From a virus, in the IMG/VR virus record IMGVR_UViG_3300025769_000841, positions 1 through 23,912 of that record: a stretch of 23,912 nt of DNA; one strand, written 5' to 3'. Shown here one piece after another: positions 8,484 through 23,426 of the stretch. The stretch's first letter is position 1; each line of letters opens with the position of its first letter. The notes beneath the pieces were generated by a model that saw nothing but the letters and a program-made list of their open reading frames with translations, ran no database searches and was not told where the DNA came from. The position numbers were made by a program, and so were the translations under genes.

Positions 8484-8615
8484 ATGAATAATCCAAAAAT
8501 AAAAGTAAATAGTAACTTAGTTACTAGTACAGTACCCGGTAAAGAGTGGGAAGGCACAAAGCCTGATACTCGTAAAAAGAAAGCAACAAAGTCAAAAGCT
8601 AAGAAATCTAAATAA
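8484..8615 (+). CDS. 43-residue Lys-rich protein
   Basis: ATG at 8484 follows a GGAG (8474-8477) at 6-base spacing, and the frame ends at TAA 8613-8615, overlapping the next ATG (TAATG). The first half is neutral and beta-like (KIKVNSNLVTSTVPGKEWEG); the second half is strongly basic, with 12 Lys and 1 Arg in 43 residues and the end KKATKSKAKKSK. Good ribosome site, tight junction on the downstream side and absence of any competing frame support a real gene. Function unknown; binding to DNA or to the capsid interior is conceivable from the charge. Confidence 0.6.
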   Translation: MNNPKIKVNSNLVTSTVPGKEWEGTKPDTRKKKATKSKAKKSK

Positions 8616-9151
8616 TGGCTGATAAATCATTTGATGACCAAGTAAAGTTTTTAGCTGGGCCAATATCAAGCTATTCTAATGAGTTAGAGCAATTTTATAA
8701 CGATGGCGTTAGAGATGTTATATCTAGGATAGCTGCTGTTAAGCCTGAGCTTTTAAAACAATTTTCTGAAGAAACTGCAGTACCTACATCAGGGTTATCT
8801 CTGTCTACTACGGCTAAGGTACTTGATGTTAACCTAGCAGGTTTTACAGCAAAAGAAATAGAAGCAGAACAAAGATTTAATGCTTGGGATACAGATAGTA
8901 TTTACTATGCCCATAGCACTGCACCTGTGTATTACACAATGAATCAGACTCTTCATGTAATACCGGGTGGAGATACATACTTTCAAGCTCCATCAGATGA
9001 GACCGTTGACGGTGTAATATTAGAACAAGATGGTCAAAGCTCTACAAATCAGAATAAACAATTAGTATCACAAACTGGTCAAAAGAGCTCTACATCAGGT
9101 AAGATTTCTAAAGCAATAAAAGGTGATAGTACGATAAGTACAGGTTTATAA
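8615..9151 (+). CDS. Head-tail connector-like protein, N-terminal part of a possibly split connector
   Basis: 178 residues. Residues 6-55 (FDDQVKFLAG...ELEQFYNDGVRDVISRI...KPELLKQF) form helices of the type seen at the start of marine-phage head-tail connectors, and residues 103-119 (PVYYTMNQTLHVIPGG) form the following beta part. In related connectors, from memory, the chain then continues into a helical C-terminal segment ('FP.E....VILYAA'), which here lies in the next gene. The last 45 residues are Ser/Gln/Lys-rich and look like a flexible tail. Role: joining the portal to the tail. It overlaps its neighbours at both ends (TAATG). Confidence 0.6.
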   Translation: MADKSFDDQVKFLAGPISSYSNELEQFYNDGVRDVISRIAAVKPELLKQFSEETAVPTSGLSLSTTAKVLDVNLAGFTAKEIEAEQRFNAWDTDSIYYAHSTAPVYYTMNQTLHVIPGGDTYFQAPSDETVDGVILEQDGQSSTNQNKQLVSQTGQKSSTSGKISKAIKGDSTISTGL

Positions 9152-9879
9152 TGGCAACGTATCATTACAGATTTACATATGTAGACGAAAATAATAAAGA
9201 AACTGGGCCATCAACTGTTAAAAGCTTAACAGAAAGTGGTACAGCTACTAGCATTAATATCTACAACGTACCTAGAGAAAACTTGTTAAACATATCAAGT
9301 AGAAAGATATATAGAAGCACTAATACTGGAACTGCATCACCAGCATTAAATACTTTTAAGCTTGTTACGACTATCAGCAATAATGACTACACTAGTTTTT
9401 CAGATAATTTAGCTAGTGTTGCATCTAATGCTGCAATGCCAACTGAAACAGCTTTTGGTAGTGGTACAACAGCATCAGCTAATGTTGTAAAATATGGTGC
9501 TGTAACTAATGCAGGTGAAACTACTGCAGCCATAGCGTCTTTTCCTGCTGAATGGTATAGAGCAGTAATATTGTATGCTGCTAAAAAGTTATGTGATAAA
9601 AAACTTATGGACATGAGAGATACGTTAGCTACAAAAAGTGATAGTTATGATGCTGGTCATAGTAATCCTTCTGAAACATCTCAAGGTTGGGAAAAAGTTA
9701 GATGGTACATAGAAGATGATGAAGATGTAGAATTAGCAGGCGCTAAGTCTTCTGCAATGACAGCAGAACAACAGCAATTTGCATTAGATTATAAATGGTT
9801 GCAAAGCCAAAGACAAATTATAGCTCAAGAATATGACTTGATGTTTCAATTTGAAGGAATGACAAGGGAGCAAGAATGA
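9151..9879 (+). CDS. Ig/FN3-like domain fused to connector-type helical domain
   Basis: 242 residues. Residues 3-97 look like one FN3/Ig-type beta-sandwich (YRFTYVDENNKETGPST, then RKIYRSTNTG and a closing strand), a module common in phage tail and connector proteins. Residues 128-160 (SFPAEWYRAVILYAAKKLCDKKL) resemble the C-terminal helix region of head-tail connectors, and residues 170-242 are helical and Gln-rich. The gene starts inside the stop of the preceding connector-like gene (TAATG) and its end overlaps the next by ATGA. Best explanation: the C-terminal half of a connector carrying an extra Ig-like domain, made as a separate chain. The same beta module recurs in the 1589-residue tail protein. 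Confidence 0.6.
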   Translation: MATYHYRFTYVDENNKETGPSTVKSLTESGTATSINIYNVPRENLLNISSRKIYRSTNTGTASPALNTFKLVTTISNNDYTSFSDNLASVASNAAMPTETAFGSGTTASANVVKYGAVTNAGETTAAIASFPAEWYRAVILYAAKKLCDKKLMDMRDTLATKSDSYDAGHSNPSETSQGWEKVRWYIEDDEDVELAGAKSSAMTAEQQQFALDYKWLQSQRQIIAQEYDLMFQFEGMTREQE

Positions 9880-10139
9880 AGCTAAAAGAAATGGTAGAAA
9901 TTATTAATCAACAGCATCCTGATATAGGAACTGTTGAAGCTATGAAGCTTTTAAACAGAGCTCAAGATGAGTTTTCAGCAAGAACAAAGATATTAGAGTC
10001 TGCTGATAAATTTGATGTTGTGGCGAACCAGCGAGGATATAAACTTGCTGACCATATATTAGAGATACGCTCAGTTGATTACGATGGGAAAAATATAAAG
10101 CGACTCGCTGGACGCCCACTTAAAAGGGATTTAACATAG
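9876..10139 (+). CDS. Phage adaptor-like protein, N-terminal half
   Basis: 87 residues. The pattern LLNRAQDEFSARTKI (about 25-39) followed by RGYKLADHILEIRSVDYDG (about 53-71) matches what I know of the first half of phage adaptor proteins that sit below the portal: a helix, then a 'Y.L..d.leI..V.ydG' strand pair. Those proteins normally go on for another 100 residues or more; here the frame stops at TAG 10137-10139, overlapping a GTG start. The missing part resembles the gene at 10735. ATGA overlap with the upstream gene indicates translational coupling. A truncated but sufficient short adaptor is the alternative. Confidence 0.6.
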   Translation: MKLKEMVEIINQQHPDIGTVEAMKLLNRAQDEFSARTKILESADKFDVVANQRGYKLADHILEIRSVDYDGKNIKRLAGRPLKRDLT

Positions 10140-10735
10140 TGCAAGGTTTAGAATACGCAAAGAATTATAACTATAAGCCAAGCTTATTAGGTGCAGTTTT
10201 AGATAAAATGCCTTACCTTGGTGGATATAGAAGACACAAAAGAGCTATGGATTATTACAATCAAGTACATAATGATAATCCTAATTTGACTATTAAAGAT
10301 TTTCAAGGAGAAAGAGTTCATAAAGGTGCTAATGCGAGTGGTTCAATGGTTCATCATTTTAGTGAAAGATATCAAAATGAAGTAAATGACTCTACGATTC
10401 AGGATGTTTTTAGAGCTAGAAGCCTTGTTGAAGATAGAGACAATCCTAATAAATATAGTTATAGTAATTTTGTAGAACAAGATGATATAGGTGTGGTAGA
10501 CCAGTTTGTTAGGGGAACTAGAGCTGGGCATTCAGTAGAAGATGGTGATGCTTTGTCACATGCAGTAGACCCTTTTAATGTAGTAAAATTTCAACATGGA
10601 GCTAGAGGTTTATTTGGTATACCTGTAGGATACGATGCACAAATAAAAAAGAATCCCGGTATAAATCCAAGAATAGATAAGGATTATTTTAGAAATCAGA
10701 TAAGTGAAGGTGGAAGAATGGGAGTATATAAGTAA
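10139..10735 (+). CDS. Protein of unknown function lying between two adaptor-like halves
   Basis: 198 residues starting with GTG (TAGTG junction). Not recognised. The N-terminus is basic and aromatic (YAKNYNYKPSLLGAVLDKMPYLGGYRRHKRAM), the middle is polar and charged with many Asn, Asp, Gln and Arg, and the C-terminal third is Gly-rich (GARGLFGIPVGYDA). No membrane segment, nuclease, HNH, GIY-YIG or intein motif is visible, so an obvious selfish element is not supported. The segment VDPFNVV (about residues 143-149) has a near copy, VDPLNVV, in the gene at 11205. It may be a neck or tail protein of this phage group, or an insertion that separated two adaptor halves. Confidence 0.65.
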   Translation: MQGLEYAKNYNYKPSLLGAVLDKMPYLGGYRRHKRAMDYYNQVHNDNPNLTIKDFQGERVHKGANASGSMVHHFSERYQNEVNDSTIQDVFRARSLVEDRDNPNKYSYSNFVEQDDIGVVDQFVRGTRAGHSVEDGDALSHAVDPFNVVKFQHGARGLFGIPVGYDAQIKKNPGINPRIDKDYFRNQISEGGRMGVYK

Positions 10736-11205
10736 TGAGTACAGTTATTACAGAATACGTATGGTGGACTGAAAGAGGAGCTATATGGCTTGCTTATTAT
10801 GACTCATCTAAAAACGCAGAAGAGGATAGGTTTACATCATTATCAGATAGTACAAAAGATGTACATATATTTTATTATAAAAAAGCTGACCACTTTAAAT
10901 TTGAAGGTCAAAGTGTAGAAGATAGAGCAGTTGTAGGTGGACGATACTTAAATGCAGGTGTAAAAGGCAGTGCTGGCTCTTATACTGTAGATACAGACTT
11001 TCTTACACAGAGAAGCGATATTCCAGAACAATTTCATGAGTACCTTGTTGATAAAGCTATACAGCTTGGTCACGAAAAGAAAGGTCAATTAGATATTGCT
11101 CAATACTATAATCAAAAATTTGAAAAAGGTGTAAAGTTAGGTAAAAGATTTGCCTATCAAGCACGGAATGGACAACCTATTAATATTAACCCGGTGGATT
11201 TTTAA
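10735..11205 (+). CDS. Adaptor/connector-like protein, C-terminal half
   Basis: 156 residues. The N-terminal part alternates strands with aromatic residues (EYVWWTERGAIWLAYY, then VHIFYYKKADHF), and residues 93-140 are helical with the pattern IPEQFHEYLVDKAIQLG...AQYYNQKFEKGVKLGK. In adaptor proteins I know, this order ('W...g.i.lyp', 'Y.k.a..l', 'P...h..lv.yal', 'A..y...F') is the second half of one chain whose first half looks like the protein at 9876. It starts within the stop of the gene at 10139 and ends overlapping the next ATG. Role: likely part of the ring below the portal. Confidence 0.62.
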   Translation: MSTVITEYVWWTERGAIWLAYYDSSKNAEEDRFTSLSDSTKDVHIFYYKKADHFKFEGQSVEDRAVVGGRYLNAGVKGSAGSYTVDTDFLTQRSDIPEQFHEYLVDKAIQLGHEKKGQLDIAQYYNQKFEKGVKLGKRFAYQARNGQPININPVDF

Positions 11206-11426
11206 TGCCTGAAGGATATACTGGATTAAACTTTGGTTCGTTTAAATTATCAGAGTTTACTAATTTATTATTTAAGCAAGTAACCGATTCTTACTTTCAT
11301 TCTTTATCAGAAGAAGATTTGTTTTCTTCTGTAGACCCATTGAATGTAGTATTTGAACCCGTAGGTACATCTACTAGTGTTTACACGCCTGTAAGTATAA
11401 TTGACGCAACATTTACACCAGCATAG
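11205..11426 (+). CDS. Short protein of unknown function
   Basis: 73 residues, no membrane segment. It contains FKLSEFTNLLFKQVTDSYFH (helical), the motif VDPLNVVFEP shared in part with the 10139 product (VDPFNVVKF), and a beta-like C-terminal end (TSVYTPVSIIDATFTPA). TAATG overlap with the upstream connector gene and a strong AGGAGGG for the next gene overlapping its stop argue for a genuine gene in the neck/tail operon. Function not recognised. Confidence 0.65.
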   Translation: MPEGYTGLNFGSFKLSEFTNLLFKQVTDSYFHSLSEEDLFSSVDPLNVVFEPVGTSTSVYTPVSIIDATFTPA

Positions 11427-16306: not shown

Positions 16307-16575
16307 TGTCAAAAATAATAGATAAGTTTGACATAAGAGGTAGCAAGACATTCAGAAAAAGACCTGAAAAGTGTCCCTATTGCGAATGCAGTAGTATACA
16401 TAGTGTAGAGATACTTGGTGCATACGAAGGAGCTCTAATGTGGGAATGTGATTACTGTCATGCCTTTCTATTAAGGTTTACAAAGCGCACAACGGAGAAA
16501 CATCTCCAGAAGGCGAAAAAGTTATTAATAGACGTTAGTAATTGGGAGGAACTTTGGGAGCAACTACCAAATTAG
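16306..16575 (+). CDS. Zinc-ribbon protein
   Basis: 89 residues from GTG 16306 (TAGTG junction). Two Cys clusters, C23/C26/C28 (CPYCEC) and C48/C51 (CDYC), separated by a beta-hairpin (HSVEILGAYEGALMWE), form a zinc-ribbon typical of DNA-, RNA- or protein-binding small proteins. The basic segment FTKRTTEKHLQKAKKL follows, and the end overlaps the phosphoesterase gene. The tight overlap suggests the two are expressed together. The target of the ribbon is unknown. Confidence 0.7.
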   Translation: MSKIIDKFDIRGSKTFRKRPEKCPYCECSSIHSVEILGAYEGALMWECDYCHAFLLRFTKRTTEKHLQKAKKLLIDVSNWEELWEQLPN

Positions 16576-17333
16576 ATAAAGGTGTAGTAAAGCGTGGAAT
16601 TATTACACCAGATAAGCATTTTCCACTTGAAGATAAAGGTGCTATTGCATGCCTTAATAAAGCAATTGAAATAGTTAAACCTGATTTCTATGTAGACCTC
16701 GGTGATGTGGGTGAGTGGTTTTCCGTCAGTAGCTGGCAGTGGAAAAAGAAGAAAAGACCACCATTAGAGTATCAGTTACCTTTTGTAGATAAGGAAATAA
16801 AACAAGTAAACAAGGGGATAGACAGAATAGATGAAGCATTGGATAAGGCTAATTGCACAGAGAAGTACTTCTGTGAAGGAAATCACGATGACTGGCTCAA
16901 CAGGTTTCAACAAGAAAACCCGTACTGTCATGGATACAACTTTAAAGATGCCGTATTACAGGGACGAGGATACAAATACTATCCTGTGGGAAAGTATCTC
17001 AAAATCGGTAAGTTGTTTTACTATCATGGAAATCATTTTGCTGGTATCAACCACACCCGCAATCATCTTATCCGTCTTGGTTCAAATGTTATGTACGGCC
17101 ATCACCATGATATTCAGCAATCTTCAGTTACCCACTTGGATGGTGTCAAGAGTGCTTGGTCAATAGGATGTTTAAAGAAGTTAGATTCTAAATCAAATGA
17201 TTGGCTTATGAATAGAAAACATAACTGGCAACATGCATTTGCAGTAGTAGATTACTTTGATAATGGTTACTTTACTGTGCATATAATACAGATAATTAAT
17301 GGTCGTGCCTCTCTGTGGGGAGAGTTAATTTGA
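16554..17333 (+). CDS. Calcineurin-like metallophosphoesterase
   Basis: 259 residues from TTG 16554, which has GGAGG (16545-16549) at 4-base spacing; TTG 16542 would add four residues. All metal-binding motifs of the superfamily are present: DxH (D20, H22 in TPDKHFP), GD (D51 in VDLGDVGEW), GNH(D) (N110, H111 in EGNHDD), a later H158 (YYHGNHF), and GHxH (H183, H185 in MYGHHHD). A two-metal hydrolase is therefore likely. The substrate cannot be told; known relatives act on DNA, RNA, cyclic nucleotides, Nudix-type substrates or phosphoproteins. A basic insertion WQWKKKKRPP (about 61-70) might contact nucleic acid. Location among tail and lysis genes is unusual for a replication nuclease. Confidence 0.9.
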   Translation: MGATTKLDKGVVKRGIITPDKHFPLEDKGAIACLNKAIEIVKPDFYVDLGDVGEWFSVSSWQWKKKKRPPLEYQLPFVDKEIKQVNKGIDRIDEALDKANCTEKYFCEGNHDDWLNRFQQENPYCHGYNFKDAVLQGRGYKYYPVGKYLKIGKLFYYHGNHFAGINHTRNHLIRLGSNVMYGHHHDIQQSSVTHLDGVKSAWSIGCLKKLDSKSNDWLMNRKHNWQHAFAVVDYFDNGYFTVHIIQIINGRASLWGELI

Positions 17334-18656: not shown

Positions 18657-21600
18657 ATGGCATTAGCTAGCAACACACCAAATCAATGGCAGGGAGTGCA
18701 AGATGCTGGTATTACTAGCATCTCTAATAAAAGTTCTTTTTTAAGACTCTCTGGCCAATTTAATGGTGAAAAAGACACTGAGTATAACATAGTTATAGAT
18801 GAATTAACTAGTGGCTTGGTAACAGATTTAGACTTTATGGTTACTACTGATGTAACTGGTTTAACAAATGGTACTTATACTAATTTAGCTACAACTACAG
18901 TTAGTGGCTCTGGAAGTGGTTTAAAATTAAATCTTGAAGTTCATCATTCTAAGTATGATGGAGGTGGTGCTAATAGTGTGCATACAGCAGGTACTGGTTA
19001 TAAAATTGGAGATACTATAAAAGTACTTGGCACAGCTTTAGGTGGTGCTTCACCAGCTGGAGATGTAACACTTACTATTACCTCAGTTACTAATTCAAAT
19101 TTAAAATATAAAGTCAAAAAAATTGTAGAAGGCATTGATACTGCATATGGCAATTTAATTACCCCAGCTGAAGATATAAATCAATCAGATGATATAGGAT
19201 ATGGCATTTCATTAGCTTGGGGCTCTTTTGCTCCTTTTAAGCTTGGTGAAAAAATAGTATTTAGTTATTTTGCTAATGGGTCAATAGCGTCAGATATGTT
19301 TTGCTTAAAAACAAAAGATGGCTCTCATTTAATAAAGTTTTGGAATGGAACACTAAGTGTCCAACATGATATTGATAAAAAACTACCAATAGACCCTGAT
19401 AATATACCCACAGGAGCTAAAAAAGATAATAGGATAGGTGTAGTATCGCAAAACTCAAGACATGCTGATTTTGCTCAAATAAACAGTAAAAGTGTAAGCA
19501 TTGGATTAGGAGATAGCAAAGCTACTCCTCCTAAATGGGTTGGTATGCAGCAATATAAACAATGGAATAAAGAGTTAGTAAAAGATAGAATGGTAATAGA
19601 AGATGCAGAATTAAAAATACCTGCTGATGTTCCTGTTTTGTCTGATATGGTTGTTTTAGATGTAGCAAACTGGTATAATGCTAGTAATCAAAAGGGTGGC
19701 AGTTCTGGTGCTTGGACTCAGGACTACCTTGCTGGGTTTATTATAGGAAAGCCAGATTTATATTTATTTAGGACTAGTACAGGTGCTTTTGGCCCTACCT
19801 ATTCAGTAACTAGCTATATAAAGTATGGAGTAGAAGATACTCAGCTTGTTTCTCCTGTTGCAATAGCTACAGATGGCCCTCATTTATTTGTTCTTGATGA
19901 TGTTGGTAGTGGCTTAGTCCATTGTTATAAGTTTACAGGAGCAGAAGACTCAGGAGATACTGATAGCCCTACAATAGCTTCATTTGATAAATATAATAGT
20001 AATTGGCCTTACGCATTACCAGATACTTTAAAAGGTATTGCTCAAAAGAAAACTAAATCAGGAGTGCCTTGCAGTGGTGCTTCGTATACAGATATTATGG
20101 TTACACCTACAGATGCTAGGTTTAATACTAATAATGGTGGTAATGGTAAAATATTTATACAAGCTAGTTGGATTTTTAACAAAGATAATGACTATACGAA
20201 ATACGATGATGACCCTAATAATACATGGGAGCCTCCAATAGTAGGTCATACTGATGATAGTCAATGGCTTTGGGCTGTTGATTTAGCAAATCCTGCTCAT
20301 CCTACGGGTATGACTGCTCAGCTTGATAATAATGGCAGATTATTAATGGAAAATAAAAGCCCTGCCTTAGATAAGTTTTATAAAATAAATCAAGTAAATA
20401 TACCTCCTACAACAGTAAGGCCACAAACTGTTATACACAATGCTGTAATTAGAGGAGATTATGATATAACAGAAGGAGGGCATCCTCAAGAAGCTACTGC
20501 AGATTCTAGTAACCCAAACACAACTAATGTATTTGAAACAGCACCAATTTATACAAATAATAATGGTTCAGGAATATTAGTTCAAAAAGGTGGATTAGGA
20601 GTAAAAATTGACAATAAAGAAGCTGGAGTTTTGCAAACATTTAGGTTTGGATTAACAGATATAGGAGAAGCTACTAGAGTAGGTGTAACTTGTGTATACG
20701 CTTCTTCTGATAAAAGCAGATATGGCGATAGTGTTATTAATAAAAGAAAAGGTCACTTGCAGAACGAAAGTGTTTTGTATGCAGAATTAATTAGTAGTAG
20801 TGCTTATTACTCTGACAGCTTTTTAGGAGGAGAATTTAATACTGGAGCTAACTCATCTAGAGATAGGTTAATCTTAAGTGGAGGAAATTCAGGAACACCA
20901 AAGAAAGTTGAATTAGCTGGATTACCAGCTTCTCAAGTTGTTTCTTTTAACATTGTAGATGGTAACGCTACTGGTTTTTCAAAGAAACCATTAATTATAC
21001 CATTAGCTATAGATACATTGAAAAACGGATATAACTCAGCTGATGCTGCTACTCAAGAAGATTTTGATTATGGTGCAAAATACTATAATACAGAAGAAAG
21101 AAGCTTGGTAATGGATAATGGTAAACCAAGTGATGTAGTTAGAATTATGTATCATAGAGATACAAATACTAGTAAATCATATTTGCAGACATTTTTAGAA
21201 GATGGAACTTCTATTACTCATGATATAACTACTTTATATGCTGCAGATTCATTACAAACAGGTAATGGTGCTAATGGCTGGGTAAAAGATACATTTTTCT
21301 ATAAAAATCCTTTTCATAAACAATTAGATAGTTTTGCAAGTTCATCTCATGCAGGTAAATCTGCAAGTGAACATATGCCGGGTTTGTTTAATAGTAACAA
21401 GCTATCTGTAGGTCTTGTTCAACATCCAAGAATAAATTATGTACAAGCAGCATTAAATGCTGGAAAAGATGGAGCAAAAATAGCATATAGAGACAGGACT
21501 ACAAGAAGCAGTGATAGATATACAGATGTATTAGCTGCTACTTATGCAAATGCTGGTACTCTAACAGCAGAAAGTAGTACAGTTTGGAGTCATTGGGAAC

Positions 21601-23426
21601 AAGCTTTTGGAGGTAAAGCAGGTGATGTAAGATTGTTTGTATTACCACATGAAAGGACAGAAGATTTTAAAGCAAAGATTCAATACGACCAATCTCAGGA
21701 GACTAAGATGTGGGATTACACTCCTACTAAAGCAGCTACATTTAATAACGGCATGAAACATTTTGTTATAAATCAAAGAAAAAGTGAGTGGTCTTTACTA
21801 TACCCAATAAACTTAAATGGAGGAGTTACTCCTGTAAGTAGCACAGTAGGATTTCAAGCTCAACAACCATTTTTAGAAGTAACTGGATTTGATAATGTTG
21901 GAAATGGTGCTCCTGCTGATAGCAATGCTAGAATAAGCGCTCCTGTAAGTCCGGGTCAGTCTGATTTTATAGGTTGGTGGAAAGTAGCTCCTAATGGAAG
22001 TTTAGATTATAATGAAACTAATAAAGAAGCTTTAGGCCCAGACTATTTATATTATAGTTTTTCTTTAGTATATGACGGACATCAAGAATCTCCATTATCT
22101 TCTAGCTTAGGCTCTAGTGTAGATTCTAATAGTGGATGGACAGTTCAAACTAATAAAGATAGTTTAAATGTTAAAATTGTAATAAACGATATTAAAAATA
22201 TATCAAAAAGAGTATCTCATATAAATATTTACAGGTCTAAGAACAGAACAGATGTTCCATTTGCAAAAGCATTTTATCAGTTAGTAGAACAAATTTCATT
22301 AGATGATGTAAGATGGGTAGAAGATGGAAGCGTTGATGATAAATGGACATGTACTATTGTTGACCTTGGTAAAACTGGTGAAACATATGAAACAAGAACT
22401 GGTGTGTCAGAGTTGCTTGAGAATACAATGCCTCATTATGGCTTGTCTGCAGAAGGAGATGGATATCTATTTGTAAGTCAAGCTTGGCATCAGTCACTAG
22501 ATGAAGCAACTAATTATATATTTAGGTCAAAGCCGGGTAAGTACTCTGTCTTTGATTGGAGTTCTGATTTTGTAGAATTACCTGAGTACCCTTCTGCTTT
22601 AAGTTATTACAACGGAAAGCTATTTGCATTTAGTGACTCTACAACATACTTAATAAACCCTAGAACCTTGGTAATAGAAGAAACATTTTTACAAGCTGGA
22701 TGTCTATCTAACTCTGCTATTGTGAGTTCTGATTATGGAATGTTTTGGGCTGACAAAAAGAGTATTTGGTTATATCAAGGAGCAAGAATACAAAATATAG
22801 GATTACCTATAGAACAAGGTATGGATTCTTCTTATAGAAATAGACATGATATAGCTGATAGTGTACATGTAGAATTTGATGCTTTAAGTAAGTGTTTTTG
22901 TGTTTTTCATAAACCTAAAAGACAATATACTACATTAACTGGAAGCGATGTAAATGACGGTCAGTTAACAGAAAGCAGTTACCAAGCTGCTGTATGGGCA
23001 TACCATATTGAAAAACAAAGGTGGGATTATTGGGTGCTAACAGACAATGTTGATGATGCAAAGCTAGGCAAGTCTACATATGCTACTTGCAGAGACTATA
23101 ATGGAGGAATTTTTTACATAAATAAGCATGGTTTATTTCAGTTAGGAGCAAGTAACTATAGAAAAGCATGGCATTGGATATCAAAAAACTTTGTAATGGG
23201 ATTTCCTACTCTTGATAAAAGATTTTATAAACTTAGAGCTGTATCTCAAAATGGTACTCCCGTATTAGAATATAAAGTAGATGATGCTTTAGTAGGCCTT
23301 GGTGTTGATACAAATGAAAAAATAGCAACTAAAAAAGGTAAAAGAATTAAAGTAGCTGTTAGAGCAGATGGGAATACAGCAGTTGATAGTATAGGTATAA
23401 TTTATAGGAAACCAAAGGCAAAGTAA
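18657..23426 (+). CDS. Giant tail/stopper protein with fibre, FN3-like and propeller-like parts
   Basis: 1589 residues, the largest gene here. About residues 82-148 contain a fibre-type module (GSGSGLKLNLEVHH, then HTAGTGYKIGDTIKVLG). Long beta-rich stretches follow to about 1100. Residues about 1129-1244 form a FN3-like domain (DYLYYSFSLVYDGHQES, INIYRSKNRTD). From about 1305 there is a propeller-like region (LPEYPSALSYYNGKLFAFSD, TYLINP, YGMFWADKKSIWLYQ, YKLRAVSQNGTPVLEYKV). This order, with a C-terminal propeller-like part, fits stopper or nozzle proteins of podoviruses. It probably closes the head and forms the tail tip with the preceding protein. No transmembrane segment. Beta-helix or enzymatic parts are not visible. 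Confidence 0.75.
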   Translation: MALASNTPNQWQGVQDAGITSISNKSSFLRLSGQFNGEKDTEYNIVIDELTSGLVTDLDFMVTTDVTGLTNGTYTNLATTTVSGSGSGLKLNLEVHHSKYDGGGANSVHTAGTGYKIGDTIKVLGTALGGASPAGDVTLTITSVTNSNLKYKVKKIVEGIDTAYGNLITPAEDINQSDDIGYGISLAWGSFAPFKLGEKIVFSYFANGSIASDMFCLKTKDGSHLIKFWNGTLSVQHDIDKKLPIDPDNIPTGAKKDNRIGVVSQNSRHADFAQINSKSVSIGLGDSKATPPKWVGMQQYKQWNKELVKDRMVIEDAELKIPADVPVLSDMVVLDVANWYNASNQKGGSSGAWTQDYLAGFIIGKPDLYLFRTSTGAFGPTYSVTSYIKYGVEDTQLVSPVAIATDGPHLFVLDDVGSGLVHCYKFTGAEDSGDTDSPTIASFDKYNSNWPYALPDTLKGIAQKKTKSGVPCSGASYTDIMVTPTDARFNTNNGGNGKIFIQASWIFNKDNDYTKYDDDPNNTWEPPIVGHTDDSQWLWAVDLANPAHPTGMTAQLDNNGRLLMENKSPALDKFYKINQVNIPPTTVRPQTVIHNAVIRGDYDITEGGHPQEATADSSNPNTTNVFETAPIYTNNNGSGILVQKGGLGVKIDNKEAGVLQTFRFGLTDIGEATRVGVTCVYASSDKSRYGDSVINKRKGHLQNESVLYAELISSSAYYSDSFLGGEFNTGANSSRDRLILSGGNSGTPKKVELAGLPASQVVSFNIVDGNATGFSKKPLIIPLAIDTLKNGYNSADAATQEDFDYGAKYYNTEERSLVMDNGKPSDVVRIMYHRDTNTSKSYLQTFLEDGTSITHDITTLYAADSLQTGNGANGWVKDTFFYKNPFHKQLDSFASSSHAGKSASEHMPGLFNSNKLSVGLVQHPRINYVQAALNAGKDGAKIAYRDRTTRSSDRYTDVLAATYANAGTLTAESSTVWSHWEQAFGGKAGDVRLFVLPHERTEDFKAKIQYDQSQETKMWDYTPTKAATFNNGMKHFVINQRKSEWSLLYPINLNGGVTPVSSTVGFQAQQPFLEVTGFDNVGNGAPADSNARISAPVSPGQSDFIGWWKVAPNGSLDYNETNKEALGPDYLYYSFSLVYDGHQESPLSSSLGSSVDSNSGWTVQTNKDSLNVKIVINDIKNISKRVSHINIYRSKNRTDVPFAKAFYQLVEQISLDDVRWVEDGSVDDKWTCTIVDLGKTGETYETRTGVSELLENTMPHYGLSAEGDGYLFVSQAWHQSLDEATNYIFRSKPGKYSVFDWSSDFVELPEYPSALSYYNGKLFAFSDSTTYLINPRTLVIEETFLQAGCLSNSAIVSSDYGMFWADKKSIWLYQGARIQNIGLPIEQGMDSSYRNRHDIADSVHVEFDALSKCFCVFHKPKRQYTTLTGSDVNDGQLTESSYQAAVWAYHIEKQRWDYWVLTDNVDDAKLGKSTYATCRDYNGGIFYINKHGLFQLGASNYRKAWHWISKNFVMGFPTLDKRFYKLRAVSQNGTPVLEYKVDDALVGLGVDTNEKIATKKGKRIKVAVRADGNTAVDSIGIIYRKPKAK

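Follow-up and report, generated by a model that had tools for sequence, protein, structure and literature searches.

The fold of the head-to-tail adaptor is one of those found most widely in tailed phages. The SU10 virion has twelve adaptors, which connect the portal to the nozzle (PMC9509320), and the adaptor gp11 (PF24175; 7Z47; PMC9509320) is one chain with a helix-strand-strand-helix order, whose gene is placed after the major capsid gene. All the solved adaptors matched in this study are single chains, including chains G and 2 of the GP4 portal-tail complex (8JOV; deposited with lengths of 204 and 213 residues) as well as T7 gp11 and KP32 tail tubular protein A, which share the general adaptor fold predicted for our locus and to which no sequence similarity was detected in these searches. 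The GenBank relatives that we found are also unsplit: the adaptors of Arthrobacter phage Jasmine, Microbacterium phage Shocker and ctEqG8, which are sequence-related to the 214-aa adaptor of one contig in our collection (L087; 96.5 bits against PF24175), are encoded by one ORF, and a large gene follows directly ('phage stabilization protein' in ctEqG8). In a literature search limited to open-licence papers, no report of a split adaptor was found.

We analysed a 23.9 kb piece of an uncultivated tailed phage genome (virus record G000), which is called the window below. Its genes are arranged in the order of M15 endolysin, terminase, portal, probable scaffold and major capsid, and a run of small genes then follows. 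Within this run, three genes on the + strand are 9876..10139 (87 aa, ATG start), 10139..10735 (198 aa, GTG start) and 10735..11205 (156 aa, ATG start), with TAGTG at 10137-10141 and TAATG at 10733-10737 as their junctions and another TAATG at 11203-11207, and in these respects the first-pass annotation was accurate. It had also proposed that the first and third genes are the N- and C-terminal parts of an adaptor and that the second belongs to neither, and the evidence given below agrees with both proposals; of the two outcomes that it had named as refuting them, neither was obtained. Very probably, the first and third genes together specify one head-to-tail adaptor of the SU10 or T7 gp11 kind, each gene providing one of its two chains. 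The predicted fold, the order of helices and strands and the place after the major capsid gene are shared with SU10 gp11; the difference is that SU10 has one chain, whereas here there are two chains from two genes.

Sequence relationship of the two genes to adaptor families

IMG/VR searches gave 17 loci for the 10735 product and 59 for the 9876 product, and a search with single-chain forms gave extra loci, all cited here by locus number. At most of them, a gene for 87-96 aa abuts a gene for 132-161 aa with no gene between. In L010-L016 and L077-L083, one ORF of 247-276 aa is found instead, whose N-part is like the 9876 product and whose C-part is like the 10735 product; fused forms lacking the 10139 gene thus exist. 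We built an HMM from these single-chain relatives of 247-276 aa, and among the window ORFs it matches exactly two, at complementary ranges: residues 5-85 of the 9876 product at HMM positions 5-85 (E 7.4e-10) and residues 87-142 of the 10735 product at positions 184-241 (E 7.5e-10). When the same HMM was applied to every ORF of the split loci at E<=1, it matched 65 N-half ORFs, 62 C-half ORFs and zero others, and the complementary matches are therefore not due to chance. Conversely, HMMs of the split N-half and of the split C-half each match the fused ORFs in the correct order (9e-14 and 1e-16 for L010). Profile-profile comparison by hhalign placed columns 4-85 of the N-half family on columns 4-85 of the fused family (98.3%, E 2.5e-14), and the C-half family on its final 64 columns (98.0%, E 2.2e-13); the first about 85 residues of the C-half are aligned to the fused family by position and via Pfam alone, without support from hhalign.

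The Pfam SU10_adaptor profile has a length of 194 and a curated cut-off of 27 bits. The 9876 product alone gives 19.8 bits, below the cut-off, and the Pfam search gave no match for the 10735 or 10139 product alone; with single window halves, PHROGs and Pfam gave sub-threshold matches at most. When the two window halves are joined end to end, the score is 28.1 bits, which is a narrow pass. The N-half joined to the 10139 product gives 17.1 bits, no gain over the 19.8 bits of the N-half alone. Joined pairs from split contigs without an intervening gene score much higher (L045, 56.1; L052, 55.8; L063, 47.4; L032, 43.7 bits). The joined pairs, that of the window included, cover positions 1-182 (L045, L052 and L063) or 21/23-181/179 of the 194, which is nearly the full profile. 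The fused L010 protein passes unaided with 35.4 bits. The halves of L045 cover positions 1-77 and 98-182 separately, and so they behave as two portions of one family, as do the window halves against the single-chain relatives, and not as separate complete families. A single polypeptide is what SU10_adaptor describes, and we find two ORFs, with an intervening gene in the window and a stop-start overlap in the relatives lacking it; the pair is therefore classed as a split SU10_adaptor variant and not as an ordinary member. That each window half lies below the family cut-off explains why the adaptor is missed by annotation in such phages.

Both adaptor halves are real genes under strong purifying selection (dN/dS of 0.03-0.07 for the N-half and 0.10-0.18 for the C-half, against 0.06-0.08 for the portal). 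A second adaptor-family match was searched for in 12 records of 24-55 kb, whose completeness is not given, and none was found. Relatives of either half were not found among GenBank phages. A PDB sequence search with the fused and split profiles found no adaptor, and we therefore used structural matching.

Predicted fold and the neighbouring protein upstream

The AlphaFold2 model of the fused L010 protein (pLDDT 73.6, pTM 0.63) predicts an adaptor fold for this single-chain relative, comprising N-terminal helices, a beta dock domain and C-terminal helices. Its clear PDB matches are phage adaptor or neck proteins: chain G of GP4 is the best (8jov_G, Z 13.2), followed by KHP30 (12.4), SU10 (7z47_A, 11.8), cyanophage A4 (11.4), T7 (6r21_M, 9.4) and KP32 tail tubular protein A (8.4). 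The split point corresponds to a weakly predicted loop of this model (residues 85-98, pLDDT below 50), which separates the N-terminal helices and first strands from the remaining beta domain. In the window, two N-terminal helices, the first beta strands and a conserved C-terminal GRPxxRDLT are assigned to the first chain, and aromatic beta strands (VWWTER) and C-terminal helices (IPEQFHEYLVDKAI...) to the second. SU10_adaptor members have an embracing loop at the C-terminus that contacts the portal. The C-terminal tail of the second chain is conserved (RGR..G....I.PVDF) but is predicted with low confidence in the fused model (residues 237-247).

In the model, the helix bundle takes helices 3-13 and 19-37 from the part corresponding to the first chain and helices 189-205 and 212-236 from that corresponding to the second. 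Because each chain would supply only part of the bundle, neither alone makes a complete fold, and this is the main reason for inferring that the two form an obligate pair. As the bundle would draw its first two helices from chain one and its last two from chain two, the chains may pair at once, and twelve such pairs would then build the ring between portal and nozzle; on this modelling basis, we infer a virion ring containing both chains. A two-chain adaptor kept stably in dozens of uncultivated phages would mean that the fold tolerates a cut within its beta domain, and it would offer a naturally split ring protein for co-expression tests.

Directly upstream, the genes 8615..9151 (+, 178 aa) and 9151..9879 (+, 242 aa), the latter overlapping the 9876 gene by four bases (ATGA), appear to be the N- and C-parts of a second adaptor-fold protein. 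In most relatives they are fused: other split lineages have one ORF of 255-1148 aa in their place, and the division into two genes is confined to the window subclade (L001-L007). The HMM of this upstream family matches the L019, L020 and L006 orthologues of the 8615 product. The AlphaFold2 model of the relative in L031 (pLDDT 82.4) shows an adaptor fold, for which the best Foldseek matches are the adaptors of GP4, A4 (9k09_d, 5.5e-5) and KHP30, that of SU10 being also matched; GP4 chain 2 (8jov_2) is its best VIA match, with Z 9.8. According to these models, the window subclade carries two adjacent proteins of predicted adaptor fold, each in two pieces. The 9151 product (dN/dS 0.06-0.18) has an extra N-terminal domain, Fn3-like by eye, which is absent from the single-chain relatives in the alignment. 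A 1589-aa protein encoded at 18657-23426 has propeller-like and Fn3-like stretches by eye and is possibly the nozzle; Pfam and PHROGs gave no match for it, and BLAST of the 9151 product against it lent no support to the Fn3-like domain suspected by eye to be shared. The wide size range of the upstream protein is due to Q/A-rich, coiled-coil-like inserts that recur ahead of a conserved DYQWLQ helix at its C-terminus, and the size variants include L022 3970-7167, L023 4558-8004 and L070 6107-8032.

Since the upstream protein shares the fold, the 9876/10735 pair may form either the portal-adjacent ring or a second adaptor-fold ring. In the latter case, the portal-proximal ring would be built from the 8615/9151 protein, and we regard this as possible but somewhat doubtful. 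The structural matches of the L031 model are in its favour, and the GP4 portal-tail complex itself has two chains, G and 2, that match the fused model; against it, PF24175 matches the 9876/10735 products and their fused relatives, but its match to the upstream protein is not clear (16.9 bits at best, in L032, below the cut-off of 27). If this were true, the split itself would be unchanged. A wider proposal, that two successive adaptor-fold rings are both made from split, co-translated chains in the window subclade, with the 10139 product as a stoichiometrically matched ring component decorating the neck or docking fibres, seems to us unlikely.

It is very unlikely that the two halves have separate jobs, with one forming the ring and the other being a free or differently placed virion protein. 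Their rates of evolution do differ as given above, the N-half being far better conserved, but wherever a split locus extends far enough to include the two halves, both are present and their order is kept, and each holds only part of the helix bundle and thus an incomplete fold.

Junctions and translational coupling

Both halves are available from 59 split contigs; the slot between them is empty in 52 and occupied in seven. A one-base overlap joins the halves in 35 of the 52 (TAATG in 31, TAGTG in three and TGATG in one), and the remaining 17 (L045 type) have an eight-base overlap in the other frame (+1). An SD-like purine run is present at most 20 nt from the C-half start in all 52, and this SD-like stretch sits in the nucleotides that encode a conserved RDL close to the C-terminus of the first protein. 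In this RDL, 41 of 58 genomes use AGG as the Arg codon, compared with 17 of 305 among the other Arg codons of the same genes, and the bias persists after reduction to 14 clusters (<85% nucleotide identity; 6/14 versus 6/73, p=0.003). Basing on these codon data, we read the RDL motif as being, at least partly, a ribosome-binding site. In the window, the putative embedded site AGGGA in the RDL codons and the TAGTG stop-start span 10125..10141 (+), and the arrangement that serves the C-half in the relatives with an empty slot serves the 10139 gene here.

Short gene overlaps couple translation and are enriched among genes for the subunits of heteromeric complexes (PMC10666635). The pairs described there and the present one have in common a 1-nt overlap, an expected translational coupling and partners of one complex; the difference is that each partner here would contribute one piece of the same fold to a phage ring. 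We suppose that ribosomes finishing the first chain would restart on the second by termination-reinitiation, which would give near-equal amounts of the two.

Programmed ribosomal frameshifting could in principle yield one chain, the apparent split being then an annotation artefact, and at most junctions the second gene does begin directly at the stop codon of the first, in the -1 frame. This is extremely improbable: the frame relation varies, as the eight-base overlap of the L045 type shows, and a relation that is not conserved speaks against programmed frameshifting. Moreover, no conserved slippery heptamer was seen by eye, a whole gene lies between the halves in the window and in other contigs, and the start codon of the second gene is a good one and comes with an SD sequence conserved at the nucleotide level.

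The slot between the halves, its occupants and its history

The 10139 product lies outside the adaptor chain and has no match to either half, and by its distribution it is a guest: the slot is empty in most split contigs, and unrelated occupants are found elsewhere. Two occupied slots, L091 and L102, were found later, beyond the 59 contigs, and overall the slot occupants are of three unrelated kinds. The first, the 10139 family, is present in the window, L001/L002, L004 (two tandem copies), L005 and L007, and in another lineage, L091; L006 has two small basic proteins, and L055 and L102 have a protein of 149-151 aa. Between the window and L007, identity is 98% for the N-half and 92% for the sequenced part of the C-half but 32% for the guest, and guests turn over much faster than the surrounding genes. 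They start at the stop-start of the first gene, except in L006, where the start is two bases beyond. Their ends meet the C-half in TAATG or ATAATG, preceded in most cases by a purine run, which allows the C-half to stay coupled.

We propose that the 10139 gene came as a later cassette placed precisely at the stop-start, and since it would bring its own ribosome-binding site and a terminal TAATG, the second half would stay coupled to it. Guests are probably tolerated because the slot in a split adaptor is a gene boundary and not the interior of a coding chain. At this slot, a single translational coupling signal would serve unrelated genes that replace one another. As for the product itself, its family is also found in L092, L093, L097 and L100, there as an internal domain of larger proteins (556-671 aa), and in L093, L097 and L100 this large protein directly precedes the portal gene. 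These contexts suggest that the family is most likely related to the virion or its assembly, and the 10139 product is thus most likely an accessory of this kind and not the missing piece of the adaptor. The large proteins are encoded at L093 3391-5235, L092 3966-5636 and L097 2-2017 (with the domain twice in L097), and that of L093 opens with a GPSHEQGGV...EGGEWIIPKE motif. An unrelated ORF does interrupt a gene that is single in some relatives, and the 10139 segment could in principle be an intron or intein whose removal yields a single adaptor chain. The probability of this is practically negligible: in relatives with an empty slot, the halves are still separated by a stop codon and a new start in a different frame, the insert is an ORF from end to end, no Rfam intron was found in the window and Pfam gave no homing endonuclease or intein match.

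The first-pass annotation had regarded the locus as one gene interrupted by another. An unrelated gene does stand between the halves, but the interruption was not what separated them, because the halves are already separate in nearly all relatives and the guest came later. The adaptor split is older than the guest; it is an old, widespread and stable trait of this large, uncultivated marine phage group, and the guest arrived recently. In quick trees with long branches made from the MCP and portal, the single-chain forms make one clade within the split lineages (SH-aLRT 97 and 100, respectively). The L093 and L045-type lineages, which are more distant, also have split adaptors. The adaptor tree has a very long single-chain branch, and one split clade is not rejected in it (p-AU 0.28). 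The single-chain clade may be ancestral, may have been re-fused or may carry a swapped-in adaptor module. For this clade, identity is 26-30% for the adaptor N-half, 55-57% for the portal and 60-69% for the capsid, and its upstream gene, like its adaptor, is far more diverged than the portal and capsid. This difference in divergence suggests a swap of the adaptor module over re-fusion.

Several minor observations concern these relatives. The MAG label of L102 (NZBN01000005.1), in which the slot is occupied, gives a host in Euryarchaeota, and we do not accept this host because the stretch carries phage genes and the window phage has a peptidoglycan-type M15 endolysin; the contig is probably misbinned. 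In L003 and L020, a different gene of 114 aa (L020 7655-7999) lies between the upstream protein and the adaptor N-half, and the adaptor slot is empty. Downstream of the adaptor, positions 16542-17333 of the window encode a phage metallo-phosphoesterase (phrog_221, 4e-21), and the single-chain clade likewise has a similar gene downstream of its adaptor (L010 8757-9545).
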